In this document: in pieces, positions 44,790 to 63,243 of the stretch
Layout of the letters: each line of letters begins with the position of its first letter
How positions within the stretch are numbered: the stretch's first letter is position 1
From: Halegenticoccus soli
GTDB lineage: Archaea; Halobacteriota; Halobacteria; Halobacteriales; Haloferacaceae
Reading direction: 5' to 3'
Assembly: GCF_002844195.1 (NCBI RefSeq)
Contig: NZ_PEND01000005.1
Coordinates: 310,001 to 374,000 of the forward strand
Length of the DNA: 64,000 bases
Notes under the pieces: generated by a model
What the model was told of the DNA's origin: nothing
Seen by the model: only the letters and a program-made list of their open reading frames with translations
Database searches by the model: none
Position numbers and translations under genes: made by a program

Positions 44790-44906
44790 TGACAGCAATT
44801 TGTCAATGAAATATTGAACAGCAGGCAGCACCTGTTCGAAAGACAATGAATCTGTATACCATCGGTCACAATTGTTATCTTACAGCATAGAGTTGATAGC
44901 AATGGT

Positions 44907-45824: not shown

Positions 45825-45842
45825 CCGCTTCCAGGTGAACTA

Positions 45843-45885
45843 CCCCGCCCTACTCGCGCCCTTCGGGCGCTCCTTGAGGGCGGGG
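45843..45885 (-). ncRNA. Right-end / omega-RNA-like hairpin of element 1
   Basis: CCCCGCCCT pairs with AGGGCGGGG around an inner GCGCCC-TTC-GGGCGC stem at the 3' end of tnpB. The equivalent stem of element 2 has CCGACCT and AGGTCGG, a compensatory change that supports an RNA structure. Confidence 0.5.
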
Positions 45886-46013
45886 CTTCCTGCTTCCACG
45901 ACGCGCTTTGCAGGAACCGAATCGGTTCCCGTAGGGAGCGCAGTCTCCACAGGCGTTAATTCGGAGTGAACCACTCCTACATCGGAAAGACCGCGAGAAA
46001 GAATGTTCCACGC

Positions 46014-46069
46014 CGTTGCCAAAACGCTCCGCGTTTTGGCTGCCCGCCAGAACCGGCGGTTCTGGCGAC
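46014..46069 (-). repeat. Double-hairpin repeat, copy A (56 bp)
   Basis: Read on the minus strand it is GTCG, hairpin CCAGAACC-GCC-GGTTCTGG, 7-nt spacer, hairpin CCAAAACGC-GGA-GCGTTTTGG, CAACG. Both stems are perfect with 3-nt loops. It lies inside tnpB and its removal restores the coding frame (AACGCG joined to GCGTGG). Confidence 0.85.
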
Positions 46070-47148
46070 CGCGTTCGCATCCCTGTCCGCCTCAAACCCG
46101 CAGGCGGGACAGGAGTGTTCACGGACCCACAACGGCTTCTCCGTCGAAACGCCGCAGGACGCACACTCCTTGGTCGTCCCTCTCGGGTTGACCGCCACGA
46201 AGTGCGTCCCCGCTCGCTCGCACTTGTATTCGAGCACCGAGAGGAACACTCGCCACGCGGCAGAGGCGGTGTTGCGGCTGTTCGACGGCGATTCGAGCAT
46301 CCCCTTCACGTTCAGGTCTTCGACCGCCACAAGGTCGTACTCCCGAGCGTAGTAGTTCGAGAGCTTGTGCAGGAAGTCGCGGCGCTTCCGTCGGAGGACG
46401 GCGTGACACTCCGCGACTCGACGCCGTTGCTTCTCGTAGTTGTTCGACCCGTGCTGTTTGCGCGAGAGGGACCGCTGTTCGCGCTCCAGCCGTTCCCGTT
46501 CGTCGGAGAGGTCGAGCGACCCGACTGCCGTCCCGTCGGTGTCGTGAGCGTACTTGAGAATCCCCACGTCGATGCCGACGCACTTCTCGGGATTCTCAGG
46601 CGGTTCGGGTGGCTCTCGGTCCATTTCGACACCGAAGGTGGCGAACCACTCACCCGTCGGCTCCTTCTTGACCGTGACCTGCTTGAGTGTGGCGTCGTCG
46701 GGGATGGCGCGGTGAAGCCGTATCGGTATGTCCGCGAGTTTCGAGAGACAGCACAGTCTGACCGCTCTTCTTGTCGAGCTTGAAGCCAGACTGGTTGTAC
46801 GTGAAACTGCGGAACTCCCGTGGCGGCTTCCACTTGAGTTGCCCGACACCGTAGCCGTTCTCCTTGAGTCTCCCGAGGGACTTCACGTTCTGCTCGATTC
46901 GCATGACGGTCGTTTGCAGAACTGTCGAGTATACATCCGAGAGACCATCCCACCACTCTTTCAGGGCGGGAAGTTCATCGCGGATGGACCGAACGCGCTG
47001 ATTGAGGGTGCCTGCGTCCTCGGGGATTTGGTTGAAGCGGTAGAGCGCGTGATTGTACAGTTGCCGACAAATGTCTCGGTGGCGGTCCAACTCCTCGCGG
47101 TGGACGTCGGACGGCTTGAGGCGGTACTTGTAGGCGTAGTACATGGCG

Positions 47149-47286
47149 CTACTCGCGTTCCTCGATGTACTCGTCAAGACACTCACGGATGAACGACGAG
47201 AGGTTCAGGTGGTGTTCCTGAACCCACTCGTGTTGGTCCTCTCGGAGCGTGATTGTGGTCCGCTTCACCGTATATACAGTATGCAT
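47149..47286 (-). CDS. Small ribbon-helix-helix protein upstream of tnpB
   Basis: A 45-residue protein (MHTVYTVKRTTITLREDQHE, ending SSFIRECLDEYIEERE) with the beta-strand and two helices of a CopG-like ribbon-helix-helix protein. It ends 4 nt before the tnpB start. Small RHH genes in this place are common in haloarchaeal IS1341 elements and may repress tnpB, which is inference. Confidence 0.75.
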   Translation of the reverse strand: MHTVYTVKRTTITLREDQHEWVQEHHLNLSSFIRECLDEYIEERE

Positions 47287-47365
47287 TCCAACCCCCCATA
47301 AACACACCGAAAGACGACGGTGGGCCTGTGGGCCTGCCACCGAATCGTGTATGAGAACCGTGCGG

Positions 47366-47423
47366 CGTTGACGAGACGCAAAGCGTCTCGTCCGCACACC
47401 AGAACGCTTCGCGTTCTGGGGAC
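47366..47423 (-). repeat. Double-hairpin repeat, copy B (58 bp)
   Basis: Minus strand: GTCC, hairpin CCAGAACGC-GAA-GCGTTCTGG, 7-nt spacer, hairpin ACGAGACGC-TTT-GCGTCTCGT, CAACG. It shares the GTC start, first arm and CAACG end with copy A, while the second-hairpin arms differ but still pair perfectly. It interrupts one arm of the inverted repeat; the other arm lacks it near 47632. Confidence 0.85.
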
Positions 47424-47481
47424 GCTGTATCCCCTCTCTGCTCGCGGCTTCGCCGCTCGCTGAGGAAGGGGGCTTAACGCC
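47424..47481 (-). repeat. Left-end inverted repeat, arm 1
   Basis: On the minus strand this arm reads GGCGTTAAGCCCCCTTCC, then TCAGCGAGCGGCG, GAGAGGGGATACAGC. It matches the plus-strand arm at 47565-47632 over most of its length. The two arms are the facing left ends of the two IS1341-type elements. Confidence 0.75.
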
Positions 47482-47564
47482 CTCGAATAAAGCTAATTCA
47501 GTCATGGCCTTCAGATACTCTCGATCGGCAAAAATAAACTCGGGTGTTCTTTTAGCTGAATTGA

Positions 47565-47632
47565 GGCGCTAAGCCCCCCTTCCTCAGCGAGCGCCGACCG
47601 AACGGGAGGCGCGAGCAGGGAGGGGATACAGC
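47565..47632 (+). repeat. Left-end inverted repeat, arm 2
   Basis: Plus-strand GGCGCTAAGCCCCCCTTCC, TCAGCGAGCGCCG and AGGGAGGGGATACAGC match arm 1. An inner stem differs in sequence between arms but is kept as a stem (GCGGC-GAA-GCCGC versus GCGCC...GGCGC). Confidence 0.75.
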
Positions 47633-47730
47633 GCCCGCACAGTTCACTTTCACTGTCTGCGGTATCTTTACTCCCCGCGCGGTCGAACGCGGTAGTAAGA
47701 CGCTCACCACGCTTCCGACGGTGTTCACAC

Positions 47731-47790
47731 GTGGTTCGAACCGGCGAAGCCGTTTCGTCATCACGAAAGGCGCTCCGCGCCTTTCGAACG
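47731..47790 (+). repeat. Double-hairpin repeat, copy C (60 bp)
   Basis: Plus strand: GTGGTTC, hairpin GAACCGGC-GAA-GCCGTTTC (one mismatch), 7-nt spacer GTCATCA, perfect 23-bp hairpin CGAAAGGCGC-TCC-GCGCCTTTCG, AACG. Architecture matches copies A and B, but the sequence is more divergent. Confidence 0.6.
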
Positions 47791-48003
47791 ACGACAAGAA
47801 GCGTGCACCGACGGTTGGGGCCGAGTGTCGCACCCGGGAGGAGTGGGACACTCCGAACCACCCAACGAGGGAAACGCCTGCGGAGTCTGGAACCGCTACG
47901 CCCGTCCGTGCGACGGGTGCAAGTTCCGACGCAGAAACAGGAAGCTCCGACCTCAAGGACCGAGGCGCGAAGCGCCGAGGGAGTAGGTCGGGGGAGTTCA
48001 CCG
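47791..48003 (+). pseudogene. tnpB: tnpB 3' remnant of element 2
   Basis: The frame reads ...TRETPAESGTATPVRATG and DAETGSSDLKDRGAKRRGS, which parallels the tail of element 1's TnpB (TPVETALPTGTD, VVEAGSPALKERPKGAS). Only the C-terminal tail remains; it lies directly after double-hairpin copy C. Confidence 0.65.
47945..47993 (+). ncRNA. Right-end / omega-RNA-like hairpin of element 2
   Basis: CTCCGACCT pairs with AGGTCGGGG around an inner GGCGC-GAA-GCGCC stem. It corresponds to the hairpin at 45843-45885 with compensatory base changes. Confidence 0.5.
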
Positions 48004-48252
48004 CGATGCCGTACTTTGCCTGGGATAATCGAACTCCCGGCGAGATGCGTGTGTGGCTTCGGACGGATTAAATGGATCCCCAAGGTTTCCGTTGCGGTTT
48101 CCCCAGTAGAAGCGTCTCCAACAGTCGGTCCAAGACTCGCCCGGTGGTCCACCATTCTCTCTGCGATGGCCGTCGCAGTGCAGTTAGTGACGGCGGCGAT
48201 TGCCGGGTGACAAACGCCCAAGCAGAACAGGTTAAAAAACAATGCATCCACA

Positions 48253-49698
48253 GTGGCTTCATATCCGAATCCGATCAGACTCACAATCCTCGCAATTGGA
48301 CTTGTACTCGCCCGTTTTGGCGTAATCGATCGCGAACGTGCGGTCGATACAACCGATCTTGCCTGGCCACGCATCGTCACAGGACTCGCACGGATGTCAA
48401 AAAGTGCGGTCGACGTTGCAATGGTTGGGGTTACCGTCGGGACCGCCGCCGTTGCTGGAGTTGGGTTCGCGAGTCCGTTCTACGGACTTGCCTTTGCCAT
48501 TGGAGGCGGTGTCGCAGGTGGCACTATTGCGTTGGTATCACAACGGTACGGCGCTGAAGCGTACGAGGAGCTCAGCCTCGTCGTACGGTCGAGCACACTT
48601 CTCGTTCTGATCATCAGCATACCTGTATCCGTGATTTTCTGGGTGTTCCCTCACGAACTCATTTCACTGCTTAGTGACAATAGTCAAGCAATTGCGTACG
48701 GTGCTGAGTACCTCAAGATCGTCGGTCTCGCCGTTCCGTTTGCGGGATTGAACCTCGTCGGGGGACGAGCACTCATTGGAGCCGATGACGCCTACACTGC
48801 GATGCAAGTTCGTGCGAGCGGGGCTCTCATCAACATTGCACTGAATAGTGTGTTCATCTTTGGCTTCGGCTGGGGGGTTACTGGTGCCGCGCTTGGAACC
48901 GTCTGCTCGAACGTTGCCGTCACGCTCACCTTCGTGATCGGAATCACACAGGGACGGTTTCCCGGAATGGGGAGGTTTCCTATTCAGGTTACCCCGCTTG
49001 GAACGTACGTCGATCCAGCAACGCTTCGCTCACTCGTCTCGATTGGTGCACCAGTTGGAGGGCGCAATCTCGTCTGGGTAGTCGCAGAGTTTCCGATGCT
49101 TGGTATCCTCGATATGTTCGGGGAAAGTACCGTCGCTGCGTTCGTTATCGCCCGTCGTATCTGGGGGATCATGAACACACCTGGTTGGGGATTCGGCCTC
49201 GCAGCGTCGAGTTTGGTTGGGCAGAGTCTAGGACGGAACGACGAAGAAACAGCAGCCGAATATGGTCGCGAGATTATCCAGTTCGCGGTCGCGACATATG
49301 CCGTTTCTGCGGTCCTTATCGCGATATTCGCTGACTCACTCGTGCTCTTATTCGCCGAGAGTGCGGCAAGCCCAGAGGTGCCGATTGCGATTACCCTTGT
49401 GTATGCGGCTTGCGTCGCAGTGATCTTTCAGGGTATTGCAGGTGCTTCCTCGGGCGCTCTTGATGCGAGTGGAGATACTCGGATTCCCTTTGCCAGCCAA
49501 ACACTCGGCATGTTCGGTGGTTCAATTCCCCTCGCCTATCTTGGTGCAACGACAGGACTCGGCTATTGGGGGCTGTATCTCGCCTTTATCGCGGAAACAG
49601 GCGTTCCTGCGATAATCAATTATGCCCGGTTCCGAACTGGGAAGTGGAAGGCGATAAGCAAAGCGTACCGACCCACAACCACGGTTGAAGACGATTGA
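48253..49698 (+). CDS. MATE-family efflux transporter
   Basis: A 481-residue multidrug/toxin exporter with about twelve membrane helices in two homologous halves (DLAWPRIVTGLARMSKSAVD begins half one; LRSLVSIGAPVGGRNLVW begins half two; GWGFGLAASSLVGQSLG is typical). The start is a GTG at 48253 (ASYPNPIRLTILAIG), which gives the N-terminal extension seen in haloarchaeal members. The 250 nt before it join directly to the right end of IS element 2, so its original promoter may have been replaced or lost. Confidence 0.9.
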   Translation: MASYPNPIRLTILAIGLVLARFGVIDRERAVDTTDLAWPRIVTGLARMSKSAVDVAMVGVTVGTAAVAGVGFASPFYGLAFAIGGGVAGGTIALVSQRYGAEAYEELSLVVRSSTLLVLIISIPVSVIFWVFPHELISLLSDNSQAIAYGAEYLKIVGLAVPFAGLNLVGGRALIGADDAYTAMQVRASGALINIALNSVFIFGFGWGVTGAALGTVCSNVAVTLTFVIGITQGRFPGMGRFPIQVTPLGTYVDPATLRSLVSIGAPVGGRNLVWVVAEFPMLGILDMFGESTVAAFVIARRIWGIMNTPGWGFGLAASSLVGQSLGRNDEETAAEYGREIIQFAVATYAVSAVLIAIFADSLVLLFAESAASPEVPIAITLVYAACVAVIFQGIAGASSGALDASGDTRIPFASQTLGMFGGSIPLAYLGATTGLGYWGLYLAFIAETGVPAIINYARFRTGKWKAISKAYRPTTTVEDD

Positions 49699-50297
49699 GC
49701 AGAGAGAGGCAGCTGAGTGGCTCTAATCTCCAAAATTTGCGTCCGTAGGGCACCGTTGAGATCCTATAGAAAATCTGTCATGTGGAAAGAAATAGCTGTT
49801 AGATAGATGTGCGAACGTACCGACGCCATAGTTGGGAGACCATGATATAGATATTAACACGAAGAAGGCGCCTGTATGACGGATCAAAATTGCGATGTGA
49901 TCAAAGACCTCGTCCAACAACACCGGAATAGCCGCGCAGCGACGTTCGATGACGAAAGCCACCACGGTATCTATCATCCAAGAGTAGTAGGATAAGTATT
50001 TTTCTGTAGGAGATATTCAAATTTATCTTGACGCTCCCAACGAGACGGCATATGACCGGAATTATTATTACTCCTGCGTTCGCTATGCAATAATTGGGGC
50101 TACAAACGGGACATTCAAGCCGAGAATTCCACCGTGTTTCCGACCGTCATCGGATTCGAGCCAGCCACTGTCAATTGAGTTATCGCCTCGGTTTACGATA
50201 GCCCGTTTCTAGCTCTCCCTTCCACTTTGCCTTGGAGAAGAATCGCTCTCCGGCCTACGCTTTTGAGCAGCGATAAAAAACTGTATTTGTGGTGAGC
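49699..50297. other. Intergenic region with one doubtful small ORF
   Basis: About 600 nt, AT-richer than its surroundings. A 39-codon frame at 49876-49995 starts MTDQNCDVIKDLVQQHRNSR and has no recognised relative; it may be a truncated gene. Nothing else could be supported. Confidence 0.4.
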
Positions 50298-51743
50298 TCA
50301 GTAGTTGAGGTAGACGGTCTTCGTCGTCGTGAAGAAGTCGATCGCGGCGTCGCCCTGCTCGCGGTACGTGTTGCTCGACGAGTCCTTGACGCCGCCGAAC
50401 GGGACGTGGAGTTCGAGGCCCGTGGTCTTCTCGTTGATCTTCACGACGCCGGCCTCGACGTCGTCGGCGAACCGGTTCGCCTCCGAGAGGTCGCGGGTGA
50501 CGATCCCGGCGGAGAGGCCGTAGGGGACACCGTTGGCTACCTCGATGGCTTCCTCGTAACTCCCGACGCGAATGACCGCGAGGACCGGGCCGAACACCTC
50601 CTCCTGGGCGATGCGCATGTCGGAGTCGACGTCGGAGAAGACGGTCGGCTCGACGAAGTACCCCTCGCTGTCGATCTCGGGGCGGTCGCCGCCCGTTTCG
50701 AGGGACGCGCCCTCGTCCTCGGCGATTTTGATGTATTCCAGCGTGCTCTCGAGTTCGCTCTCGCTCACCTGGGGTCCCATGTCCGCGCCGTCGAGACCGG
50801 GGCCGATCTCGATGCTCTCGGCGTAGTCGACGATGCCGTCGACGAACTCGTCGTACACCTCCTCGTGGACGATGGCGCGCGAGGTCGCGGTGCACGCCTG
50901 CCCGGTGACGCCGAACGCGCCCGCGCCGACGATGTCGATCGCCTTGTCGACATCGGCCGTCGGCATGACGACGGTCGGGTTCTTCCCGCCCATCTCGGTC
51001 TGGACGCGCTTTTCGTCGTCCGTCGCGGAGGCGTACACGTTGTGCCCGACGGACGAACTCCCGGTGAACGAGACGACGTGGACGTCGTCGTGCGTGGCGA
51101 ACGTCTCGCCGACCTCGCTGCCGGGACCCGTCACCATGTTGACGACGCCGTCGGGGATGCCAGCCTCGTCAAGCGCCTCGATGAGTTTGCGGCCGACGTT
51201 CGGCGCGAGCGACGCCGGTTTGAACACGACCGTGTTTCCAGTCGCGAGTGCAGGGGCGAGCTTCCAGGCCGGAATGGCGATCGGGTAGTTCCACGGGGTG
51301 ATGAGCGCCGCGACCCCGAGCGGCTCCCGACGGGTCGACAGCTGCCGCCCGGAGACGCTCGACTGTTTTACCCGTCCGCCGTAGTCGCGGGCCTTCTGCG
51401 CGTAGTAGTAGAAGATGTCGATCGCGCGCTGGACCTCCGGTGCTGCCTCGGCCGGCGTCTTCCCCTCCTCTCGGGAGAGCGCCTCCGTCAGCTCGTCCTT
51501 GCGCTCTTCGAGGAGCTTCGCCGCGTCGTTCAGAATGGCGCCGCGCTCCGGCCCGGGCGTGTCGGCCCACGCCTCGCGCGCTTCGTTTGCGGCCTCGATG
51601 GCTCGCTCTGCGTCCTCGGCTCCGGACTGCTGGAACGTTGCTACCACGTCGTTCGTGTCCGCTGGGTTTCGGACCTCGAACGTCTCGCCTGTCTCTGCCT
51701 CGATCCACTCGCCGTCGATGTAGTTGGTGACTGTCTCAGCCAT
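50298..51743 (-). CDS. xacF: Alpha-ketoglutarate semialdehyde dehydrogenase (aldehyde dehydrogenase)
   Basis: A 481-residue aldehyde dehydrogenase. Visible are LITPWNYPIAIPAWKLAPAL, the NAD motif SFTGSSSVG, the catalytic Glu in TEMGGKNPTVVMP, the catalytic Cys in VTGQACTATSRA and the end EKTTGLELHVPFGGVKDSSS. Whole-length resemblance, from memory, is to haloarchaeal XacF, which oxidises 2,5-dioxopentanoate to alpha-ketoglutarate at the end of the pentose pathway. It is divergent from xacE with a shared 214-nt promoter region. Other semialdehydes are possible substrates. Confidence 0.9.
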   Translation of the reverse strand: MAETVTNYIDGEWIEAETGETFEVRNPADTNDVVATFQQSGAEDAERAIEAANEAREAWADTPGPERGAILNDAAKLLEERKDELTEALSREEGKTPAEAAPEVQRAIDIFYYYAQKARDYGGRVKQSSVSGRQLSTRREPLGVAALITPWNYPIAIPAWKLAPALATGNTVVFKPASLAPNVGRKLIEALDEAGIPDGVVNMVTGPGSEVGETFATHDDVHVVSFTGSSSVGHNVYASATDDEKRVQTEMGGKNPTVVMPTADVDKAIDIVGAGAFGVTGQACTATSRAIVHEEVYDEFVDGIVDYAESIEIGPGLDGADMGPQVSESELESTLEYIKIAEDEGASLETGGDRPEIDSEGYFVEPTVFSDVDSDMRIAQEEVFGPVLAVIRVGSYEEAIEVANGVPYGLSAGIVTRDLSEANRFADDVEAGVVKINEKTTGLELHVPFGGVKDSSSNTYREQGDAAIDFFTTTKTVYLNY

Positions 51744-51923
51744 GTGTACCCATTCCCCCGCATCGCATACCTATCTTACGGCGACGGCGAACAAGACGGT
51801 CACTCCCCACGCGCCGGGTCCATCGTGAAACCAATCCGCCGACGAGCAGCGTCACCGACGGGCCGCTCAGCGTCGGTAGCTCGGCGACAGTTCCTCGTCG
51901 GGCGGTTTGGACCGAAAGGGGGC

Positions 51924-51935
51924 AATCATTATATG
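51924..51935 (+). promoter_or_regulatory. TATA box of xacE
   Basis: CAATCATTATAT lies about 26 nt before the ATG at 51958, consistent with a leaderless transcript in the xacF-xacE divergent promoter region. Confidence 0.55.
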
Positions 51936-51957
51936 GAACGGCCCAAAACATTGAATA

Positions 51958-52827
51958 ATGCGGTACTACAGACTGCAGGGTGACCAGCGGCCCAGGCTGG
52001 CGGTCCGTGACGGGGATGGAACCTTCGATCTGTCGAGCGCCAAGCCAGAGCTTCGGAGCTTCGCCGACCTGGCTCGCGCGGCGAGCATCGCGGAAGAGCC
52101 GGTCGACACCATCGCCGAGCGGAATCTCGACGAGGCCGCCGAGCTTCCCCCCGGAGCGATCGAAGAGCGATCGCTGGCGCCGGTCATCCCGGACGAGGTG
52201 TGGGCTGCGGGCGTCACCTACCAGATAAGTGAAGAGGCGCGCGAGGCGGAAAGCGGGATGCCGGAAGTCTACCTCGAGGTCTACGAGGGCGAGCGCCCTG
52301 AGGTCTTCTTCAAGGCGACCGCGAGCCGGACGGTCGGACCGGAGGAGGCGATCGGCGTCCGTGGGGATTCGGACTGGAACGTTCCAGAGCCCGAACTCGG
52401 CGTCGTCCTGCACCACGGCGAGATCGTCGGATACACCGTCGGGAATGACGTGAGCAGTCGCTCGATCGAGGGATCAAACCCCCTGTACCTCCCACAGGCG
52501 AAAGTGTATGATCGGTGCTGTGCGATCGGGCCGTGCATCGCATCGCCGAATACCGTCGGGGATCCGCACGACCTCGAAATGTCGATGACCATCGAACGTG
52601 ACGGGACGACCATGTATGAGGACTCGACCACGACCGCGGAGATGGTGAAGACGTGCGAGGAACTCGTCGCCTACTACACCCGTCACAACGCCGTTCCGGA
52701 GACGGCCGTCCTCCTCACGGGAACGGCACTCGTTCCCGACGAGGAATTCACCCTCAGCGAGGGTGACGTCGTGACGATCGACATCGACCGGGTCGGCACG
52801 CTGCGAAACCCGGTCGTCACGGTTTGA
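51958..52827 (+). CDS. xacE: 2-keto-3-deoxy-pentonate dehydratase, FAH family
   Basis: A 289-residue FAH-fold enzyme: WAAGVTYQISEEAREAESG, VYEGERPEVFFKATASRTVG, VRGDSDWNVPEPELGVVLHH (metal Glu pair), GYTVGNDVSSRSIEGSNPL and LPQAKVYDRCCAIGPCIA. This is the XacE/KdpD pattern; the enzyme turns 2-keto-3-deoxy-xylonate or arabinonate into alpha-ketoglutarate semialdehyde, the substrate of the divergent xacF product. Start and TATA spacing agree. Confidence 0.92.
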   Translation: MRYYRLQGDQRPRLAVRDGDGTFDLSSAKPELRSFADLARAASIAEEPVDTIAERNLDEAAELPPGAIEERSLAPVIPDEVWAAGVTYQISEEAREAESGMPEVYLEVYEGERPEVFFKATASRTVGPEEAIGVRGDSDWNVPEPELGVVLHHGEIVGYTVGNDVSSRSIEGSNPLYLPQAKVYDRCCAIGPCIASPNTVGDPHDLEMSMTIERDGTTMYEDSTTTAEMVKTCEELVAYYTRHNAVPETAVLLTGTALVPDEEFTLSEGDVVTIDIDRVGTLRNPVVTV

Positions 52828-53659
52828 ACGGCCGCGGACGCGAGCGGTGACCCACCCCTCGTACCGAGTGACATCGTTCTCCGCTCTACTGGCGGCCATC
52901 TGCTCTGGACGTCAGCGAGAGCATTCAAGGACGCCCTTCTCCGACGGTCGCATAGCCGGAAGGTACCGTATCGGGGCGTTCATCACGCTCGCACACGATC
53001 CTGACTGCGATCGGATAGGATGCTCACCTATGCAGGGAAGCCGAGGCGAAGAGTCCGTATCGTTGGCCCTCAAAACGCCGAAAATAGCCGGTCCCGGTAC
53101 AACCTGACGCTCATGCGCGACACGGGCGGTGTTCATCCACGGCGAACGAATCCGACGCAGTGCCGGTTGAACAAAGCTGGCAGCCGAGTGTGACGGCGTT
53201 TCGCTCCGAACGGGCGTTCACTATCGTCGGACGCCGTCGAAGGACGAGCGGCGGACGAGTGAGTCGACCTGAGAGTGGGGAACCTGACTGCAGTGTCGAT
53301 TACACAACTATGTTTGTAAGCCCAGCGGAAATCGCTCCTCACATTCCGTCGGTGTCGACGAGACTCTCGAATCAGACGTTACCGTTCAGAATATATTATA
53401 CTCCAGTGAAATAATATGGTCGAATATCCTCAGTAAGGATCATTAACTTAGGAGTATACAGGGAAGTGAAGCACGTAGGATGGAAATTATTCATGAATAC
53501 CAGCTATTTCGTTTTTATTTTCGTCTTCCTTCAACCCAACTTTCCCTCACCGACTTTAACTTTCCATCAGACCATATACTATTCAAGGATTTAGTCAATA
53601 TAACGTGAATAGCTTGCAGCGTGTAAAAATCGCACAGTGACGTCGTCGGCTCGTCCCCG
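52828..53659. other. Intergenic region, AT-rich in its right half
   Basis: About 830 nt. Short frames here show no domain. From about 53380 GC falls strongly, with stretches such as AATATATTATACTCC. It separates the catabolic region from the surface-polymer region. I see no gene. Confidence 0.5.
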
Positions 53660-54676
53660 TCACTCAGCAGACCGCAGAAAGCGCCCGAGCACTTCGACCG
53701 TCGCCAGTTTCTCGAGGAGTCCGGTCGCGGTCGATTCGGGGAAGGCTTCGAGGCGCTTTCGGGCGGAGGTCAGGTGGAGTCGCGCCTGCCGTGGGACCGC
53801 CTCAGAAGCGTCGGAGGGCGCATCTCCGTCGGAGGAAAGAGCGTTCGAACCGGTCCCTGACGGCTTCATCGACAGAGGGGCGGACGGTTCGCGGAAGTCG
53901 TCGACAGATGGCGCCGACGGGGAGGGATACGAGCCCCCTCCTGAGTTCGAAGCGGTCGATCGGGAGGCGAAGTACTCGACTAATAACCGAAGTCCGTCGG
54001 CGAACGATTCGCCGAACGCCGCCGCCGCTTCGACCGTCCGGTCGTCACCCCCGCCGAGGAGCGCCCCGATCTCGGCGGCGACGTCCAGGAACGACCCGTG
54101 TCGAGGGAGGCGTCGTCCGGAACGAACAGCGTCAGTTATCTTCCCGGAGTCGACGGCCTCCGAAGACGAACTGACGTCCGCGGCTCGGGTCTCACAGACC
54201 TGCCGGGAAGCGGCCGCGAGCCGGCGCAGGTAGGCGCGTCTCACGTCGGGAGGGCAGTCAGTTTCCAACAGGAGTTCGAACGCCCGAGAGAGGAAGAAGT
54301 CGCCGATCAGGATCGTCTCGGAGACGTCTCGGGCGTCCTCCCCATACTGACCGCCAGCGGACCCCCGCGAACCGGCGGTCAGGCTTGCGTGGGTCGCCGC
54401 GTGGGCGTGCGCGAACTCGACGGCGAGCCCCGCGGGCGTGAACGACTGTGTGCCGTCCGACTCGACCGTTTCGAAAGCGCGACCGGATCGGACGGCCTCT
54501 GCTACGAGCAGGAGGATCAGAGCGCGAAGCCGCGGGCGAAAGTCGTCCGTGAGACGGCGGTAGGCGGTCGAATGGAACGGCATGGACGCGTCTTCCGAAG
54601 CGCGGGCTACCAACGCGGCGTCGACGGCCGCGAGTCGCGACCGCAGCCGATCCTCGTCGTCCGGATCGCTAGCCAT
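53660..54676 (-). CDS. Polyprenyl-synthase-fold protein without Asp-rich motifs
   Basis: A 338-residue, probably alpha-helical protein that resembles trans-prenyl diphosphate synthases: LRALILLLVAEAV, AGLAVEFAHAHAATHASL, DARDVSETILIGDFFLSRAFELL, RRAYLRRLAAASRQVCE and DVAAEIGALLGGGDDRTVE. Both Asp-rich motifs that bind Mg-pyrophosphate are missing: the first is replaced by HAHAATHAS near residues 90-98 and the second by FADGLRLLVEYFA. Residues ~240-300 are a Ser/Pro-rich insertion. It cannot be a normal synthase and may be a regulatory subunit or have another role. It lies next to glycosyltransferase genes. Confidence 0.6.
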   Translation of the reverse strand: MASDPDDEDRLRSRLAAVDAALVARASEDASMPFHSTAYRRLTDDFRPRLRALILLLVAEAVRSGRAFETVESDGTQSFTPAGLAVEFAHAHAATHASLTAGSRGSAGGQYGEDARDVSETILIGDFFLSRAFELLLETDCPPDVRRAYLRRLAAASRQVCETRAADVSSSSEAVDSGKITDAVRSGRRLPRHGSFLDVAAEIGALLGGGDDRTVEAAAAFGESFADGLRLLVEYFASRSTASNSGGGSYPSPSAPSVDDFREPSAPLSMKPSGTGSNALSSDGDAPSDASEAVPRQARLHLTSARKRLEAFPESTATGLLEKLATVEVLGRFLRSAE

Positions 54677-54797
54677 TCGTTACTGTGTGTCCCGGTAGCA
54701 CATCCATTACTGTTTGGGTCGGGGTATCTCGCTTCGACGCGCGAGTCGGTGCGGCGCGTCGGCGCGATCGTCGTGGCGCGTTGAGGGGGATCGTAAG

Positions 54798-55949
54798 CTA
54801 CCAGTTTCCGGCGACGGCGCGCTCGTAAACCGACTCGGCGCGATCCGCGACGCTGTCCCAGTCGTACATCTCTGCACGTTCCAGCGGCGACGTGGCCGGT
54901 TCGACCCCGTCCAGAGCTCGATCCAGCGCGTCTGCGAGCTCGTCCGTCGTTGGCTCGACGAGAAACCCGGCGTCGCCTATCACTTCGCCCGCCGCGGAGT
55001 CCGGGTGCGACGCCGCGATGACGGTGCAATCGGCCGCCATCGCCTCCGCGAACGTGATGCCGAACCCCTCGCGCGTGGACGGCGAGGCGAACACACGCGC
55101 GGCGCGCATGTGCCCGAGGACGTCCTCGTACTCGTCGAGGAACCCGAGGAACGTCACCCGGTCCGCGTGATCGAGGCGGTCGGCGCGAGCCCGGAGTCGC
55201 TCCGCCTCCGGTCCGTCGCCGATGACGCCGAGGGTGGCATCGTGTCGGTCGGCGATCGAGTCGAAGGCGTCGAGCAGGAGGTCGACGTTCTTGTGTTCGA
55301 TCAGCCGGCCGGCGAAGAGGACGTCGTAGTGTTCTTGGTCGTTCTCTTCCGGGAAGGGAGCCTTACGGACCTGTTCCGCATCCATACCGGTCGGAACGAT
55401 TTCGATGGAGTCGCGGGCGGGGCCGATTTCGGCGAGCCGATCGGCCGTGAGCTCCGAGATAGCGACCGGATGCTGGGGGACGCGCGCCGTGAACCGCTCT
55501 GTGAATTTTCCGAACGGGGAGAGAGAGCCGAGGTACTCGTCCCAGTACGCGCGCCAGACCTCCAACCACGTGGTAACGAGAGGCGTGTCGGTACCGAGCG
55601 TCGCAAGCTTGGACGAAAGGACGGGGAAGTAAGGGAAGACGGACGCGACGACTAAATCGTGGTCACGCGCATCGAGGCGGTTCCGGAGAGGCGGTGCGAG
55701 ACGGGCCGCAAAGTCGATCGCTTCCGTGATTGAGCGACGGTCATCGGCGTACAGTTCGGCCGCCGGTGCGACGGCTCTGAGCGTCATTCCGTCGTGAGTG
55801 ATCTCCTCTGGCCCCTCCCAGTAGTGCCGACCGTAGATCGTGACGTCGTGCCCTCGGTCGGAAAGGCGCGTTCCGATTTCGTGTATCCGTTTTTCCGCGC
55901 CGCCTTTCACGAAGGGGTAGACGACGTTCGAAACGTAGGCGACATCCAT
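54798..55949 (-). CDS. GT4-family glycosyltransferase
   Basis: A 383-residue GT-B enzyme. The N-terminal acceptor domain begins VAYVSNVVYPFVKGGAEKRI, the donor domain has VLFAGRLIEHKNVDLLLDAF and the EX7E motif appears in TREGFGITFAEAMAADCTV. It transfers a sugar from a nucleotide or lipid-linked donor in assembly of a surface glycan. It is divergent from the phosphatase-superfamily gene at 56058. Confidence 0.93.
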   Translation of the reverse strand: MDVAYVSNVVYPFVKGGAEKRIHEIGTRLSDRGHDVTIYGRHYWEGPEEITHDGMTLRAVAPAAELYADDRRSITEAIDFAARLAPPLRNRLDARDHDLVVASVFPYFPVLSSKLATLGTDTPLVTTWLEVWRAYWDEYLGSLSPFGKFTERFTARVPQHPVAISELTADRLAEIGPARDSIEIVPTGMDAEQVRKAPFPEENDQEHYDVLFAGRLIEHKNVDLLLDAFDSIADRHDATLGVIGDGPEAERLRARADRLDHADRVTFLGFLDEYEDVLGHMRAARVFASPSTREGFGITFAEAMAADCTVIAASHPDSAAGEVIGDAGFLVEPTTDELADALDRALDGVEPATSPLERAEMYDWDSVADRAESVYERAVAGNW

Positions 55950-56027
55950 CTGTGCACTACTATTGATCGAGGCTGCGTAATTAGCTTTCAGGTCTTAATT
56001 TTTGCTCGCATTGTAGAACCCAAAACG

Positions 56028-56035
56028 ATTTATCG
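56028..56035 (+). promoter_or_regulatory. TATA box of the 56058-58414 operon
   Basis: GATTTATC about 27 nt upstream of the ATG at 56058 fits a leaderless start. Confidence 0.5.
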
Positions 56036-56057
56036 CTAAACGGTTTGGTGGTCAATA

Positions 56058-57338
56058 ATGAGTGGGCTCACTCGGAACGTCATCCTTCTCAGCGCAGATG
56101 CGCTACGTGCAGATCACCTCTCTTGCTACGGATACGATCGAGAAACGTCACCGAACATCGACCGATTCGCCTCGGAAAACGTCCAACTCCTAAACGCGTA
56201 TAGCGCAAGTTCGCACACGCGGGAGGCGGTCCCAGCACTGTTGACCGGACGGTATCCTGACGAGGCGATCGACGAGAAGTATCACTTGGACGCTCCGACA
56301 GTGGCCACCTATCTGAAGAGCGAGGGATATGCGACCGCAGGATTCCACTCGAACCCGTTCGTGTCGCGCGCGTATGGATACGATAGAGACTTCGACGTGT
56401 TCGACGACGACCTGCATCTCGGCAAACACAAGATCATCGCCCTCGCGCAACGGGCGTTGGACAAGCTGCGCAACCGCCACTACGCCCGGGCGTCCGAGAT
56501 CAACGAGCGCTCTCTCGACTGGATCGACTCGCTTGACGGTGGCCAGCCGTTCTTCCTGTGGAACCACTACATGGATCCGCACGGGCCCTACGAACCGATC
56601 GACGCGTACAGAAAACGGTTTCACGACGAGCCCGTATCGGACAAGCACGCTCAGAACCTCTACAAGCGTGCAATCCGTGACCCCGGTTCGATAAGTGACG
56701 AAGAACGCGAGACGCTCATCAATCTCTACGACGCGGAAATCCGCTACACGGACGAACACGTCGGCGCGTTCCTCGACGCGCTCGCGGACAGAGACCTTCT
56801 CGACGAGTCCGCCGTGATTTTTACCGCGGACCACGGCGATGCGTTCGGCGAGCACGGGTACTACGAGCATCCGCGCTATCTCCACGACGAACTAACCCGC
56901 GTTCCGCTGTTGATCAAGCATCCCGAAGTGAGCGAAGCGACCGTAACCCACGCTGCAAGTACCGTCGACGTGCTTCCGACGATTCTCTCGGTGGTGAACG
57001 CCGATCCGGAGGGACTTCCCGGTGAGCCGCTCGTACCGCTCGCCTCCGAGGATCTCGAAGATCGGGCGATCTTCTGTCAGGCCCGCGGTGAAGGTCAAGA
57101 TAGCGCCGTTCGGCGGTTCCGAGCATGCTCGATCGCCGGGTCGGCGTTCGCCGACGCTCGAGTATCCGGCAGCGAAATCGAGCTCACGAATCAGAAGGGT
57201 AACGCGGTACTCAGCGAGAGGCTGTCCGACCACATCGCTTCGCGCATAGCCGAGTTCAAACCGATCGAGAAACGCACCGAAGAACAGGAGACGAAGGCAA
57301 TCAACGACCGGCTCGAAGCGTTAGGGTACAAAGAATGA
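56058..57338 (+). CDS. Alkaline-phosphatase-superfamily ('sulfatase-like') enzyme
   Basis: A 426-residue protein with a sulfatase fold: metal-binding LLSADALRADHLSCYGYDRE at the start and FTADHGDAFGEHGYYEHP near the end. At the nucleophile position, aligned with the formylglycine Cys of CxPSR sulfatases, it has Thr54 (SSHTREAVPALLTG), so it is not a formylglycine sulfatase. Thr nucleophiles occur in phosphoglycerol and phosphoethanolamine transferases. It ends DRLEALGYKE, a tail shared with other proteins nearby. No membrane anchor or signal is evident. It overlaps the following glycosyltransferase gene by 4 nt. Confidence 0.85.
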   Translation: MSGLTRNVILLSADALRADHLSCYGYDRETSPNIDRFASENVQLLNAYSASSHTREAVPALLTGRYPDEAIDEKYHLDAPTVATYLKSEGYATAGFHSNPFVSRAYGYDRDFDVFDDDLHLGKHKIIALAQRALDKLRNRHYARASEINERSLDWIDSLDGGQPFFLWNHYMDPHGPYEPIDAYRKRFHDEPVSDKHAQNLYKRAIRDPGSISDEERETLINLYDAEIRYTDEHVGAFLDALADRDLLDESAVIFTADHGDAFGEHGYYEHPRYLHDELTRVPLLIKHPEVSEATVTHAASTVDVLPTILSVVNADPEGLPGEPLVPLASEDLEDRAIFCQARGEGQDSAVRRFRACSIAGSAFADARVSGSEIELTNQKGNAVLSERLSDHIASRIAEFKPIEKRTEEQETKAINDRLEALGYKE

Positions 57339-58414
57339 CCAAGGTTGGCATCAACGCGCGGACCTTCTCGGTGGACGAGCCGGGCGGCGCTGTCCAAGCA
57401 GCGATCAACGTGACCCGGGAGATACTTTCAGACGATTCAGTGGAGGTAATCCTCTTCGGACACCGGTCGGTAGCCGATCTGTTTCCCGACGCCCCAGTGG
57501 ACAGCAGTTTCTATCCTCGCAGTTCTCAACTCTACGGGCTGTTCTGGGAGCGAACCGCCCTGCCCTATCTCACCAAGAAACACGACCTCGACGTCCTCTA
57601 CTGCCCCAACGGTAACGGGCCTCTACGCCCCGTGTCATGTCCCGTCGTGATGTCAATCATGGACGTCAACGCGCAGAAAGGGATGTCGAGCGGCGTCCAC
57701 CAGCTGTATCGTAAGCTAGCTGTTCCCCCCGCCGCGCGGGCGGCGGAAAACATTATCACTATCTCGAATTTCTCGAAGCGGGAAATCGAAACCACGCTGA
57801 GCCTACCGGGGTCGAAAATCCGCGTCGTCTACCCGGGGTTGAAATCTGTCTATCTAGATGACGTCCCTGCCACTGAGTGTGACCTTCCGGACGAGTACAT
57901 TCTGTACGTCGGCGCGTTGAATCCTCGAAAGAACGTCTCGGGGCTCATACGTGCGTATCGGAGATTGAAGGACGAAATTCCGCACAAGTTGGTACTCATC
58001 GGACCGGGGAATCACGCGATATTTAAAAACCTGAATATCGAGGAATCAGACGATATCGTTCGTCCGGGATACCTCACCGAACGGGAGCTGAAATTCGCGT
58101 ACGCGAACGCGGATGCGTTCGTTTTCCCGTCGCACTACGAGGGGTTCGGACTGCCGCCCTTAGAAGCGATGGCCTGTGGGACGCCAGTAGTTGCGTCGCG
58201 GGCTACAGCGTTGCCGGAGGTGCTGGGCGACGCGGCCGAACTGGTCGATTCGAGCAGTGTCGACGCTATCGCAGAGGGCATCGAACGAGTTCTCACGGAC
58301 CCTGAATACTCCCAGTTACTCGTCGAAAAGGGACGAGAACGCGCGGGACTGTACACGTGGGAGAAAGCGGGTCGTCAGACGTTGGCCGTGTTAAAGGCCG
58401 CCCGAAACCAATAG
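57335..58414 (+). CDS. GT4-family glycosyltransferase
   Basis: A 359-residue GT-B enzyme: INARTFSVDEPGGAVQAAIN at the start, YILYVGALNPRKNVSGLIRA in the donor domain and the EX7E motif in YEGFGLPPLEAMACGTPVVA. It starts in the stop of the phosphatase-superfamily gene (ATGA), suggesting that the two act in the same pathway, perhaps adding a sugar and a phospho-substituent to one polymer. Confidence 0.93.
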   Translation: MTKVGINARTFSVDEPGGAVQAAINVTREILSDDSVEVILFGHRSVADLFPDAPVDSSFYPRSSQLYGLFWERTALPYLTKKHDLDVLYCPNGNGPLRPVSCPVVMSIMDVNAQKGMSSGVHQLYRKLAVPPAARAAENIITISNFSKREIETTLSLPGSKIRVVYPGLKSVYLDDVPATECDLPDEYILYVGALNPRKNVSGLIRAYRRLKDEIPHKLVLIGPGNHAIFKNLNIEESDDIVRPGYLTERELKFAYANADAFVFPSHYEGFGLPPLEAMACGTPVVASRATALPEVLGDAAELVDSSSVDAIAEGIERVLTDPEYSQLLVEKGRERAGLYTWEKAGRQTLAVLKAARNQ

Positions 58415-58451
58415 GATACACCGATCCAGAGTATCTCCCAGAACGAAGCTC

Positions 58452-58715
58452 TCACTCGAGGTATCCTAAGTCGCGAAGGTGGCTCTGCGCCGAATTAGAA
58501 AGTTCGACTGAAACGTCCGGTCGATCCTCGCTAGCGTTTTTCAGCCGCTCTATCTGGCGTTTCGCCTCCTTGCACGAACAAGGAGGGATCCCGTAAGAAG
58601 AGTACGCAGGAAAATAGGACGAAACGGACGAAAGGGCGTGGTTTCGGACGAAATGGCGCTTAGCTCTATCGATAGGTCGATCAAGAATTCGGGCTAGCCA
58701 GTTTCGTAAATTCAA
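58452..58715 (-). CDS. Small protein with RLxxLGYL-like tail, or end of a decayed gene
   Basis: An 87-residue frame with a TTG start (NLRNWLARILDRPIDRAKRH...). Its last residues are SHLRDLGYLE, the same tail as in the phosphatase-superfamily proteins of this region. It contains a CSC pair in PPCSCKEAKRQIERL. It begins 39 nt after the stop of the 58755 gene on the same strand. It may be a genuine partner protein or the surviving C-terminus of a deleted sulfatase-like gene. Base composition is intermediate. Confidence 0.5.
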   Translation of the reverse strand: MNLRNWLARILDRPIDRAKRHFVRNHALSSVSSYFPAYSSYGIPPCSCKEAKRQIERLKNASEDRPDVSVELSNSAQSHLRDLGYLE

Positions 58716-58754
58716 AATATTAGGTGTATGACTACACGATATTCAGAATACCTA

Positions 58755-60194
58755 TCAGATATATCCCAAATCTTTCAGTCGCTGTCGGCTTTCACCATCT
58801 ATCTCAACTGAATCAGATTCATGAGATTGGATAGCATCGAATTTCTCATCAAGTATACTACTGAAGTGGTCCTGTCTTTCTACGTCTTCACCGCACTCGT
58901 TTGATTCGTATTGGTCTACGGTAAGATCGAATAATTCCGTTGAGCCATCAGAATATTCAATGTACTTCCAATGTTTATCACGGACAGATTGGATGCTTCG
59001 ATCTAATCTTTGCGTAGGAACATTGGACCCTACTTTCCCCTTTAGTGAATCCATAGATGGCTGTGGTGTTATATACTGAGCAAAGACGTACTCTCGTGAT
59101 TGACGCGGAAGCGGCGTTTTCGAGACGGTAGCCGGCAGTGTGTCTGTTGATACTCCTGCTGCATCAAGCAACGTAGGATAGAGGTCTCTCGTCTCAATCA
59201 AATCATCACAAGTATCTGCGTCGAACCGTTTAGGGAACCTGATAATCAAGGGAACATTCAATAGCGTTTCATAGAGACAATACTGATGGTCCATCAGTCC
59301 GTGTTCGCCAATGTTCTCTCCGTGGTCACCGACAATAACGATCATCGTCTCCTCCAATATGCCTTCGTCCTTTAGAACCTGGAAGAGACGTGAGAGCTGT
59401 GTATCAAGATACGCTAGTTCGGCACGGTAAAGGCCACGTAAGATTTTGAAGTCATTTTCATCCATTTCGATGGTTCCAGCGATGTAAGCCCACGGATCCT
59501 GATTCGTTTCAGCGATACGTTCTACAGCTATGTCTGGTAGCTGCGCTTCGACAAATTCACGGGGAGGTCTATATGGGAGGTGTGGTTCAATGTAATTGAG
59601 GAACAGGAAGAATGGTACATTTTTTTGATTTACTTGCTTCATCCAATTTACCGCGCGATTGGTGATCCGTTTAGCTCCGTCATCAGCTTCACTGCTCATT
59701 TTTCTCTTTATCGCCGAAAACATCACTGAAGGGAAACTCGCCACAGACGACTGCTCCCAGAGAGCTTTGATTTTCTCCACTAGCGAATCAGCTCTCACAG
59801 CAGCAGTCAAATCTACTTCGCTCCACCCAGCGTTCCACCTCATAGAGAAATCCTCGAACCCCCGGTCAAAACCAAACACCGGACTAATCCACGGATTAGC
59901 CGAAATGCCAGCTGTTCGGTATCCTCTCTGAGAAAGCTGTTCCGCCAAAGGAGAAACTGAGGGAGTAAATTCACGAGAGTTAGCGTGCGTCCCGTGGTCA
60001 CTTGTATACTGGCCTGTGAAAATCGATGCGTGAGAGGGTAACGTCCACGGGGCAACTGAGCTGGCGTTTGTATAAACCGTTCCTTCATCAGCGACACGTT
60101 TCATAGCCGGCATTAGGCCAGATTCGAGGCCTGACAAGACCGTTCTCGATCGGGCAGTGTCTAATACTATAAGTAGAACGTTCGGTACAGACAT
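58755..60194 (-). CDS. Alkaline-phosphatase-superfamily ('sulfatase-like') enzyme
   Basis: A 479-residue protein. It has the metal Asp in VLLIVLDTARSRTVLSG, Thr51 at the nucleophile position (APWTLPSHASIFTGQY) and metal ligands in IVGDHGENIGEHGLMDH. Other family marks are YRTAGISANPWISPVFGFDR and FFLFLNYIEPHLPY. The Thr argues against a formylglycine sulfatase and for phosphodiester or phosphotransferase chemistry. The C-terminus is RQRLKDLGYI. GC is clearly lower than in the left 50 kb. Confidence 0.87.
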   Translation of the reverse strand: MSVPNVLLIVLDTARSRTVLSGLESGLMPAMKRVADEGTVYTNASSVAPWTLPSHASIFTGQYTSDHGTHANSREFTPSVSPLAEQLSQRGYRTAGISANPWISPVFGFDRGFEDFSMRWNAGWSEVDLTAAVRADSLVEKIKALWEQSSVASFPSVMFSAIKRKMSSEADDGAKRITNRAVNWMKQVNQKNVPFFLFLNYIEPHLPYRPPREFVEAQLPDIAVERIAETNQDPWAYIAGTIEMDENDFKILRGLYRAELAYLDTQLSRLFQVLKDEGILEETMIVIVGDHGENIGEHGLMDHQYCLYETLLNVPLIIRFPKRFDADTCDDLIETRDLYPTLLDAAGVSTDTLPATVSKTPLPRQSREYVFAQYITPQPSMDSLKGKVGSNVPTQRLDRSIQSVRDKHWKYIEYSDGSTELFDLTVDQYESNECGEDVERQDHFSSILDEKFDAIQSHESDSVEIDGESRQRLKDLGYI

Positions 60195-60437
60195 AGGTAA
60201 TCGTTCGGCACCGCTAACTTAGTTTTTTTCTTTATTGATTGAATCATTGAAGATTATCTTCTATGAAGGCTCGGTCTTGCGTCAGGGCAGATTTAGCTAA
60301 CACAGTCATATCAGTAACAAAAAGAGTCGGTTAGTCCCCTCCCTTTGAATCCTGCAGGGAAGGCCGGTCAAGTGTTCTCAGTTTGAATCAATATAGAGAA
60401 AAGACTAAGTACGAAAATCCACGAAATAGAGTAACTA

Positions 60438-61649
60438 ATGGTGAAAATTTGTCTTGTTAATTCATTGTTCCCGCCAGATATGCATGGAGGGGCTGAAAAC
60501 TACGTTCTACGGACAGCTAAAGAGCTTCAACGGCAAAACCACGAGGTATCTGTAATTACAACGAAGACCTTTGAGAGCACAGGTTCGTTACAACCTGAAA
60601 AGGAAAGATACGAAGGGGTTAAGGTTTGGAGGTTTTATCCTGCTAATCTTTCGCATCGAAGTGATGGTACTGGTAAAAACATCTTTGGGAAGGGTATCTG
60701 GCATCAGATCGACACAATCAATCCTCACTCAGCATACACCGTCGGCAAACTTCTTGACCGCATCAACCCGGATATCGTCCACACAAATAACTTAGTAGGA
60801 ATATCACCCACCGTAGCTCAAGCGATTCAGCAACGGAACGTACGTCACGTACATTCACTTCACGATTACAGTCTTCTCTGTCCGAAAAGCAATCTGCTCC
60901 GCGAGCGCACAGCACCCGACGATGAACTCACTGTCTGTGAGGATCCTCCCTTGCCTTGTAAGTTACTTGCAAAAGAAAAAAAGCTCGCTATTGGATCACC
61001 AGATGTTGTGACGGGTCCGAGTAAACACGTTCTCGATGTCCATCGAGAGCACGGGTTCTTTGAGGGAGTGAGAGCGGTACGAGTGAGACTTGGAATCCAA
61101 AACGTCGAACCTGAACCTCCTGGGACGCCGGAACAACCATCTGTACTCTATGTGGGTAAGCAATTGCGAGCAAAGGGACTTGACACTCTTTTCGACGCCG
61201 CAAAGGAATTACCTGGTGTGACTGTTCACATTTGTGGGACAGGACCTTACGACGACGTTGTTAGATCACGAGCAAAAGAGACCAGTAATGTCGTCTACCA
61301 TGGGTTTGTTTCTGACGATAGATTAAATCGTCTACGAAGAAAAGTTAGTGCCGCAGTCGTTCCGTCAATCTGGATGGAAAACTCCCCTATGACCATCTAT
61401 GAGAGCTTCGCAGCGGGTCTGCCAGTTATCGGTAGCAATATTGGTGGAATCCCGGAGCTAATTTCCCAAGGGGAAACGGGGTACCTCTTTGAGCCAGGGA
61501 ATGCTAAACAGCTCAGTGAAGCAATCAGCACCCTTATCTTCGAGACAGGTGAAATTGGAGAAATGCAACGAAGTGCGATAGAGTGGGCCCGAGATCATAC
61601 TGTCGAGTCACACGTTAAAAAGCTGGTTAGTGAGATTTACGAACATTAG
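60438..61649 (+). CDS. GT4-family glycosyltransferase
   Basis: A 403-residue GT-B enzyme: CLVNSLFPPDMHGGAENYVL at the start, VLYVGKQLRAKGLDTLFDAA in the donor domain and the EX7E-like motif in WMENSPMTIYESFAAGLPVI. An HXXXD-like HSLHDYSLLCP lies near residue 140, and several cysteines are present in CEDPPLPCKLL. It likely adds a sugar to a lipid-linked or surface polymer. Confidence 0.93.
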   Translation: MVKICLVNSLFPPDMHGGAENYVLRTAKELQRQNHEVSVITTKTFESTGSLQPEKERYEGVKVWRFYPANLSHRSDGTGKNIFGKGIWHQIDTINPHSAYTVGKLLDRINPDIVHTNNLVGISPTVAQAIQQRNVRHVHSLHDYSLLCPKSNLLRERTAPDDELTVCEDPPLPCKLLAKEKKLAIGSPDVVTGPSKHVLDVHREHGFFEGVRAVRVRLGIQNVEPEPPGTPEQPSVLYVGKQLRAKGLDTLFDAAKELPGVTVHICGTGPYDDVVRSRAKETSNVVYHGFVSDDRLNRLRRKVSAAVVPSIWMENSPMTIYESFAAGLPVIGSNIGGIPELISQGETGYLFEPGNAKQLSEAISTLIFETGEIGEMQRSAIEWARDHTVESHVKKLVSEIYEH

Positions 61650-61795
61650 CTGCCCACAAATAAATAAGAACAATCAGGAATGCCAAGGCGTATTCAATGC
61701 ATTGTAGTAATGAGAACAATAACACGTAATAAGATATAAATCTACTTCCTTGTTAATCTAGAAAAGTCTATAGGGGACACAGAATATCACCTAAT

Positions 61796-62716
61796 ATGGG
61801 AAAAGTAACAAGGTGGGCGGCCGAATCAATCAATGCAATTCGAACTCGTGGTTTCAGGGGATTAGCCGATGCAGCGAGGCCGGTCTATAGAAAGGCGCTT
61901 CATCAAACGCTACCACTGTCAGGGGGAGAACCAATCTACGCTAGGGATTGGGACTTACTTATTGTCCTTGATGCTTGCCGTCTTGATCTATTTCAAGAAG
62001 TTGCGGGTGAGTACGACTATATTCCGTCAGTGGATGAATTTCGTTCGCTTGATTCCATGACGAAGCACTGGATGTTACGCAATTTTACGCCAGCCCACGC
62101 AGACGAGATGAGCGAGACGGCTTATGTATGCGGGAATCCGTTCTCTGAGGAGGTACTGAAAGCCTCAGACTTTGCTCTTTTAGATGAAGTTTGGAGGTAT
62201 GCATGGAGCGCCGACCTCGGAACACTACCGCCTCGTCCGATAACAGACCGAACGATCAACGTCGCGCGTGAACACAATCCGGGTCGAATAATCGCACACT
62301 ACATGCAACCCCATTGCCCATTTATCAGTGCAAATAACGACTATAATCAAAAGAAAGTTGAAAAATGGGGTGCTCAAGGAACAGATGTCTGGCACCAGCT
62401 TGAAGCTGGGGAAGTTGACCAAGAACAAGTATGGCGAGACTACCGTCAAAACCTTCGGTACGTACTTGATGATCTCGAACTACTTTTGGAAAACATTGAT
62501 GCTAATCAAGTGGTAATCACATCGGACCACGGTAACGCACTCGGTGAATGGGGACTTTATGGCCATCCGATTCACATGCCGTTCAAATGTTTACGGAACG
62601 TCCCATGGGTAGAAACTACCGCAAAAAATGCCGGAACTCACGTTCCAGAAACCTATCGCAAGAGTGAGGTGGAAGTAGATACGCAAGAACGACTTGAATC
62701 ACTTGGATACCTGTAA
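61796..62716 (+). CDS. Short alkaline-phosphatase-superfamily protein with LGYL tail
   Basis: A 306-residue, reduced member of the superfamily. The first metal site is DWDLLIVLDACRLDLFQE (Asp59), the second is VVITSDHGNALGEWGLYGHP. The nucleophile region is altered (SLDSMTKHWMLRNF, candidates Ser87 or Thr89) and the usual LLTG is missing. It ends QERLESLGYL. It could act on glycan substituents or be a non-catalytic relative. AT-rich, as are its neighbours. Confidence 0.8.
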   Translation: MGKVTRWAAESINAIRTRGFRGLADAARPVYRKALHQTLPLSGGEPIYARDWDLLIVLDACRLDLFQEVAGEYDYIPSVDEFRSLDSMTKHWMLRNFTPAHADEMSETAYVCGNPFSEEVLKASDFALLDEVWRYAWSADLGTLPPRPITDRTINVAREHNPGRIIAHYMQPHCPFISANNDYNQKKVEKWGAQGTDVWHQLEAGEVDQEQVWRDYRQNLRYVLDDLELLLENIDANQVVITSDHGNALGEWGLYGHPIHMPFKCLRNVPWVETTAKNAGTHVPETYRKSEVEVDTQERLESLGYL

Positions 62717-63228: not shown

Positions 63229-63243
63229 GAGACAACAATATAA

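Follow-up and report, generated by a model that had tools for sequence, protein, structure and literature searches.

A protein with a predicted prenyl-synthase fold and no catalytic motifs at the edge of a glycan cluster in Halegenticoccus soli

What might a protein do that resembles a prenyl synthase, has neither of the Asp-rich motifs and is encoded at the edge of a glycan cluster? The question is raised by one gene, here called P0001, in the 4.6-Mb genome of Halegenticoccus soli. It lies in the window (the whole stretch of DNA that was analysed; 64,000 nucleotides, C5:310001-374000) at positions 53660-54676 on the minus strand, exactly where the first-pass annotation had placed it, and the reading frame is intact, with 338 codons for a protein of 338 amino acids. 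The assignment draws on the open reading frame, profile and PDB matches and a structural model. The best NCBIfam match is to geranylfarnesyl diphosphate synthase (E 1.5e-11), with all NCBIfam matches falling far below those models' own cut-offs, and phmmer against the PDB gave chain 1wy0 (E 1.1e-8). Pfam PF00348 scored 14.7 bits (E 0.018) and did not reach its gathering cut-off of 27 bits. Judged from these sequence scores, the homology of P0001 to trans-isoprenyl diphosphate synthases is beyond chance. The host has two canonical synthases, on contigs C10 and C2, and neither adjoins P0001.

To locate the active-site residues, P0001 was aligned with 80 canonical synthases, with 13 rows and 48 rows from two groups of motif-less haloarchaeal homologues (sets A and B, described below) and with a single further protein, L062. 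The canonical rows were the best 80 of 364 relatives from a second genome-contig scan, all of them canonical; they had been picked by likeness to P0001 and by a GDxL..AFE-type pattern, not by their Asp motifs. The stretches HAHAATHAS and FADGLRLLVEY, which had earlier been read as standing in place of the DDxxD motifs, do map to the two Asp-rich regions in this alignment, and both motifs are absent. According to the alignment columns, the first region (residues 91-101, AHAATHASLTA; 54374-54406, minus strand) has A/S/A for D97/D98/D101, so that only H96 is left of H D D ... D, and the second (residues 225-237, FADGLRLLVEYFA; 53966-54004, minus strand) has V/E/A for D233/D234/D237. D97, D98 and D101 occur together in 80/80 canonical rows, all of which read HDDxxD, and in 0/13 and 0/48 rows of sets A and B; D233 with D234 is found in 78 of the 80 canonical rows and again in 0/13 and 0/48.

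The losses extend to other catalytic positions. The lysine of the IPP-site GGK is P48 in P0001, the RR pair of canonical enzymes is S106/A107 and their K-T is R192/H193. Retained are R49, R51, E87, H96, G125-D126 and A132-F133-E134, among which E87, H96 and D126 are common to P0001, 13/13 set A rows and 80/80 canonical rows. Measured against 30 haloarchaeal canonical rows, the mean identity of P0001 is highest in the block of residues 116-138 (0.48), followed by 0.45 at residues 46-64; each Asp-motif helix reaches only 0.15. The conserved helix ILIGDFFLSRAFELL (residues 122-136; 54269-54313, minus strand) was delimited by its identity to the canonical rows. Loss that is this uneven, and centred on the catalytic helices, is not what uniform decay would give.

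The structure was modelled with AlphaFold2 from an alignment with 55 canonical homologues (pLDDT 78.2, pTM 0.81). Since a single-sequence control model was poor (pLDDT 41.3), the fold rests on homology and on the alignment-based model. The top structural matches are GFPP/GGPP synthases at Z 26 over about 260 residues: 5e8h (Z 26.4, 3.0 Å over 260 residues) and the archaeal GGPP synthase 5jfq (Z 26.3), which was also the best Foldseek match (E 1.1e-7). On this model, which is steered by the canonical-synthase alignment, P0001 is predicted to have the all-alpha trans-isoprenyl-diphosphate-synthase fold; the first-pass annotation had proposed a prenyl-synthase fold, and the prediction agrees with solved synthases and not with an unrelated fold. 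Its description of a Ser/Pro-rich insertion of about 60 residues has to be revised. The Ser/Pro/Gly-rich stretch, defined by pLDDT, alignment and composition, comprises the 42 residues 246-287 (53816-53941, minus strand), all with a pLDDT under 50 and read as disordered by prediction. It stands where canonical enzymes carry their GK...SDL.E.K segment, and the distance from the second Asp motif to the last helices is 72 residues in P0001, the canonical rows having a median of 83 (range 35-87), so that the stretch replaces this segment. Compared with canonical IdsA-type enzymes (GGPP/GFPP synthases, PF00348), P0001 is alike in fold, helix order, the GDxLxSxAFE helix and E87/H96/D126, and differs in being without both Asp motifs, the GGK lysine, the RR pair, K-T and the GK...SDL.E.K segment.

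Composition separates the two parts of the gene. The core has a G+C content of 0.72/0.55/0.78 at the three codon positions, which is a coding pattern, whereas residues 241-290 (0.58/0.70/0.70) are without coding periodicity. Over the whole gene the G+C content at second codon positions is 0.566 versus 0.41-0.50 in six neighbours. High values at this position are also seen in the motif-less sets, with medians of 0.52 (11 of the 13 A rows) and 0.54 (48 B rows). The Asp+Glu content of P0001 (0.145) lies inside the ranges of set A (median 0.156) and set B (0.154) and under that of IdsA (median 0.20, 17 rows).

No orthologue of P0001 was found in 2 genomes of the genus, 170 of the family or 391 of the class. 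The best non-self match had an E-value of 2.8e-11 among the 170 family genomes and, among the matches listed, 1.6e-13 among the 391 class genomes. Plasmids, phages, viral contigs and a first scan of genome contigs likewise gave no orthologue, the contig scans using short patterns that distant orthologues could escape. A recent copy of the host's own IdsA is not favoured as the source of the gene, this IdsA matching at E 3.1e-5 and the IdsA of another family at E 1.6e-13 (among the matches listed). A DDxxxD-type motif is present in 57 of the 59 matching frames (60 loci), the exceptions being P0001 itself and L062 (first numbered L036).

The gene directly upstream, on the same strand, encodes a GT4-type glycosyltransferase (54798-55949), and farther upstream there are sulfatase-like and more glycosyltransferase genes. 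The first-pass annotation had drawn on this position, at the edge of a glycan cluster where lipid carriers matter. The cluster does adjoin P0001, but it is collinear with that of a congener (G001, about 80% nucleotide identity) only up to about window position 54808, the glycosyltransferase being the last gene of the collinear block. P0001 is absent from the congener both at the synteny break (an 18-kb stretch) and genome-wide. Because the synteny stops beside P0001, the lipid-carrier argument is weak. P0001 is just outside the conserved glycan cluster and not a conserved part of it, as seen in the one congener compared. It is also absent from a 16-kb stretch around a 55%-identical glycosyltransferase in genome G018.

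The collinearity ends at window position 54808 and at L302:7891, where the glycosyltransferase gene has its 3' end. Read from its sequence, the next gene in the congener past the break resembles a ParA-type ATPase. We found no convincing repeats (52800-54850) or tRNA (44000-62000) that would mark an insertion near P0001. The G+C content falls to about 0.41-0.51 at window positions 58000-64000, as against 0.63 for the whole window. At 45977-46849 there is an open reading frame that resembles, again as read from sequence, an IS200/IS605-type OrfB/TnpB, and it clusters with frames near two of the set B loci (L113 and L114).

The two frames without a DDxxxD motif among the matches to P0001 led to further motif-less haloarchaeal homologues. 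Set A consists of 13 checked rows from 13/391 genomes and set B was found in 47/391 genomes and 22/87 genera; the proteins are about 250-280 amino acids long in the former, shorter than P0001, and mostly about 260-300 in the latter. Both sets were searched with profiles built from members in the same genomes, cut at E 1e-30; at E 1e-12 the set A profile also matches 30/30 canonical control loci. Set B occupies 50 places, of which 48 were taken with their flanks (those in G144 and G131 being left out), and L128 and L129, which duplicate L174 and L177, were not counted. The set B proteins have D-R-W-Y-G in place of K-R-L-R-P (44, 40, 42, 43 and 46 of 48 at the successive positions), and 48/48 have Glu at position 87 and Arg at the H96 position.

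The neighbourhood of set B is a conserved cassette of TetR, MATE and motif-less synthase, to which a second, divergent TetR gene and a small zinc-ribbon protein are often added; examples are L113:4186-7084, L128:3872-6774 and L129:3931-6819, the coordinates of loci being given for frames taken from stop to stop. In 32/48 loci a same-strand MATE gene is directly upstream, and 16/48 have no such MATE. TetR is nearby in 43/48 loci and in none of the other 5/48, with two TetR genes in 25/48, and a zinc-ribbon gene occurs anywhere in the stretch in 28/48, the one member that was tested matching DUF7575. Here, directly upstream means a frame on the same strand that ends less than 400 nt ahead of the synthase frame, and nearby a distance of up to about 4.2 kb. 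Because part of the same loci went into the TetR, MATE, zinc-ribbon and RND profiles (the MATE profile including the one in the window), these counts favour detection; around 30 canonical haloarchaeal idsA-type genes the same profiles gave TetR in 0/30 and MATE in 0/30 loci. Genes for TetR, MATE and a 'polyprenyl synthetase' are nearly contiguous in Natribaculum luteum (MU558_RS20855) and Natrinema versiforme (FEJ81_RS21520).

In set A, TetR is nearby in 10/13 loci and MATE directly upstream in 0/13. MATE is downstream or close by in three set A loci (L061, L092 and L105), and two set A loci adjoin RND-type genes. In one genus the motif-less homologues (L109:4193-4978 and L111:4168-4953) are immediate neighbours of a gene for a large RND-type transporter and not of a MATE gene. 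L062 (L062:6910-7917, genome G217), which is next to a TetR gene, retains E87, H96, D97 and D98 and has lost D101 and the second motif; this half-eroded site is possibly an intermediate state.

P0001 was compared with both sets. With set B it shares a synthase homology without the catalytic residues and an acidity lower than that of IdsA, but the set B proteins are shorter and have marks that P0001 does not: it has no MATE directly upstream and no TetR nearby, reads PRLRA at the DRWYG positions and keeps H96 where set B has Arg. With set A it shares H96, E87 and D126 (as do canonical enzymes), the change of K48 to P (8 of the 13 rows) and that of K192 to R (9/13), but the set A proteins are shorter while P0001 is of full length, and it has no TetR within about 4 kb, unlike the 10 set A loci. 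The profiles gave no TetR match in the window, and its sole TetR/MATE-type match is the MATE at 48253. We considered this MATE (48253-49698) as part of a dispersed cassette and rejected it, since the type occurs in 42/60 relatives and chance is likely. Its identity is 24-25% with the five best-matching MATEs of set B and 74% with the MATE beside the set A gene L105.

Scores and trees were also compared. P0001 scored 66.3 bits with the set A profile, 58.3 with the haloarchaeal canonical profile and 24.5 with that of set B, but the likeness to set A is not decisive because the host's own canonical synthase L001 scores about as well with the set A profile (69.8 bits). One quick tree split P0001 with sets A and B from 16 canonical rows and L062 (SH-aLRT 96.6), and an earlier tree had P0001 on the canonical side (support 86); the branch of P0001 is very long, and quick trees with long branches can mislead. 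None of the constrained placements was rejected (p-AU 0.534 with set A, 0.561 with set B and 0.251 with the canonical rows). P0001 would probably be kin to the haloarchaeal motif-less homologues, as a relative specific to its lineage, and not a fresh copy of the host's own IdsA.

On its function, we give roughly even credence to the proposal that P0001 is a non-catalytic pseudo-synthase which retains the fold and acts by binding. That it is not a catalyst, as the first-pass annotation had suggested, is presumed from the absence in the alignment of both Asp motifs and of the IPP-site lysine: since neither metal-binding site is left and the IPP-phosphate site is missing as well, it would not carry out the Mg-dependent condensation. 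It would retain the fold as a whole, together with the GDFFLSRAFE helix, a part that lies at the dimer face in FPP-synthase structures. Most likely its target would then be either a lipophilic ligand of isoprenoid type, bound in the former chain pocket, or a second protein.

A more specific role, which we regard as somewhat unlikely, is that of a non-catalytic partner subunit, as the first-pass annotation had proposed. It would pair with a canonical synthase (the one on C10 or that on C2) and adjust the rate or the length of the chain. Small subunits of this kind are familiar: Micrococcus HexA pairs with a synthase partner, the gene of the bacterial HexA/HepS type stands beside that of the large subunit, and CxxxC motifs define the plant type. 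P0001 would suit such a role in having the retained fold, the lost Asp motifs and the relatively conserved GDFFLSRAFE helix, and its model also matches the mint heterotetramer 3krp (chain D, Z 25.3, which may be either subunit). PMC7839719 describes a plant small subunit that shares about 15% identity with other synthases, is without DDxxD, as is P0001, and is taken as the regulatory partner of a catalytic large subunit, and a bacterial HexA that as small subunit may set chain length. Against this, P0001 differs from the plant GPPS/GGPPS small subunits in having no CxxxC motif, its only cysteines being 141 and 161, and from the HexA/HepS type in lying on C5 with no canonical synthase or large-subunit gene adjacent, and P0001 was not found in the congener, whose genome also encodes this kind of canonical synthase.

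Another reading is a synthase gene, recently acquired or duplicated, that no longer functions and is degenerating although its frame has not yet closed. The very long branch of P0001, its place at the synteny break and the failure to find orthologues among the 170 family and 391 class genomes would fit this. The raised G+C content at second codon positions relative to the neighbours and the missing periodicity of residues 241-290 point the same way. But 338 codons have stayed open, the core keeps its coding pattern, the motif-less sets are likewise high at second codon positions and the losses are concentrated in the catalytic helices, and we consider such a drifting orphan unlikely. Very improbable, in our estimate, is an enzyme of another kind, with a reaction that does not use Asp-Mg chemistry. 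The E87, H96 and D126 kept in P0001 and 13/13 set A rows could suggest it, but they are also in all of the canonical rows and may be structural, and no such reaction was found among the papers listed, as judged by titles and the starts of abstracts.

On a wider reading, which we regard as unlikely, the haloarchaeal prenyl-synthase fold may have become a non-catalytic, isoprenoid-binding accessory family for TetR-controlled MATE exporters, for example in handing over or sensing a lipophile, with P0001 as a stray and fast-evolving member outside the operon. Motif-less prenyl synthases in TetR-MATE operons were not found among the open-licence papers listed, as judged by titles and the starts of abstracts, and 'prenyl' occurs 0 times in the accessible part of PMC11721430. 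Inactive prenyl-synthase relatives as such are a known kind of protein.

P0001 alone is an orphan pseudo-synthase, of smaller import than the TetR-MATE-linked sets. Some of the motif-less proteins are labelled 'polyprenyl synthetase' in RefSeq and the catalytic Asp pair is present in 0/61 rows of sets A and B, so that haloarchaeal prenyl synthases may be overcounted. If the link to TetR and MATE reflects a joint function, an enzyme fold would have been recruited into lipophile export or sensing in archaea.
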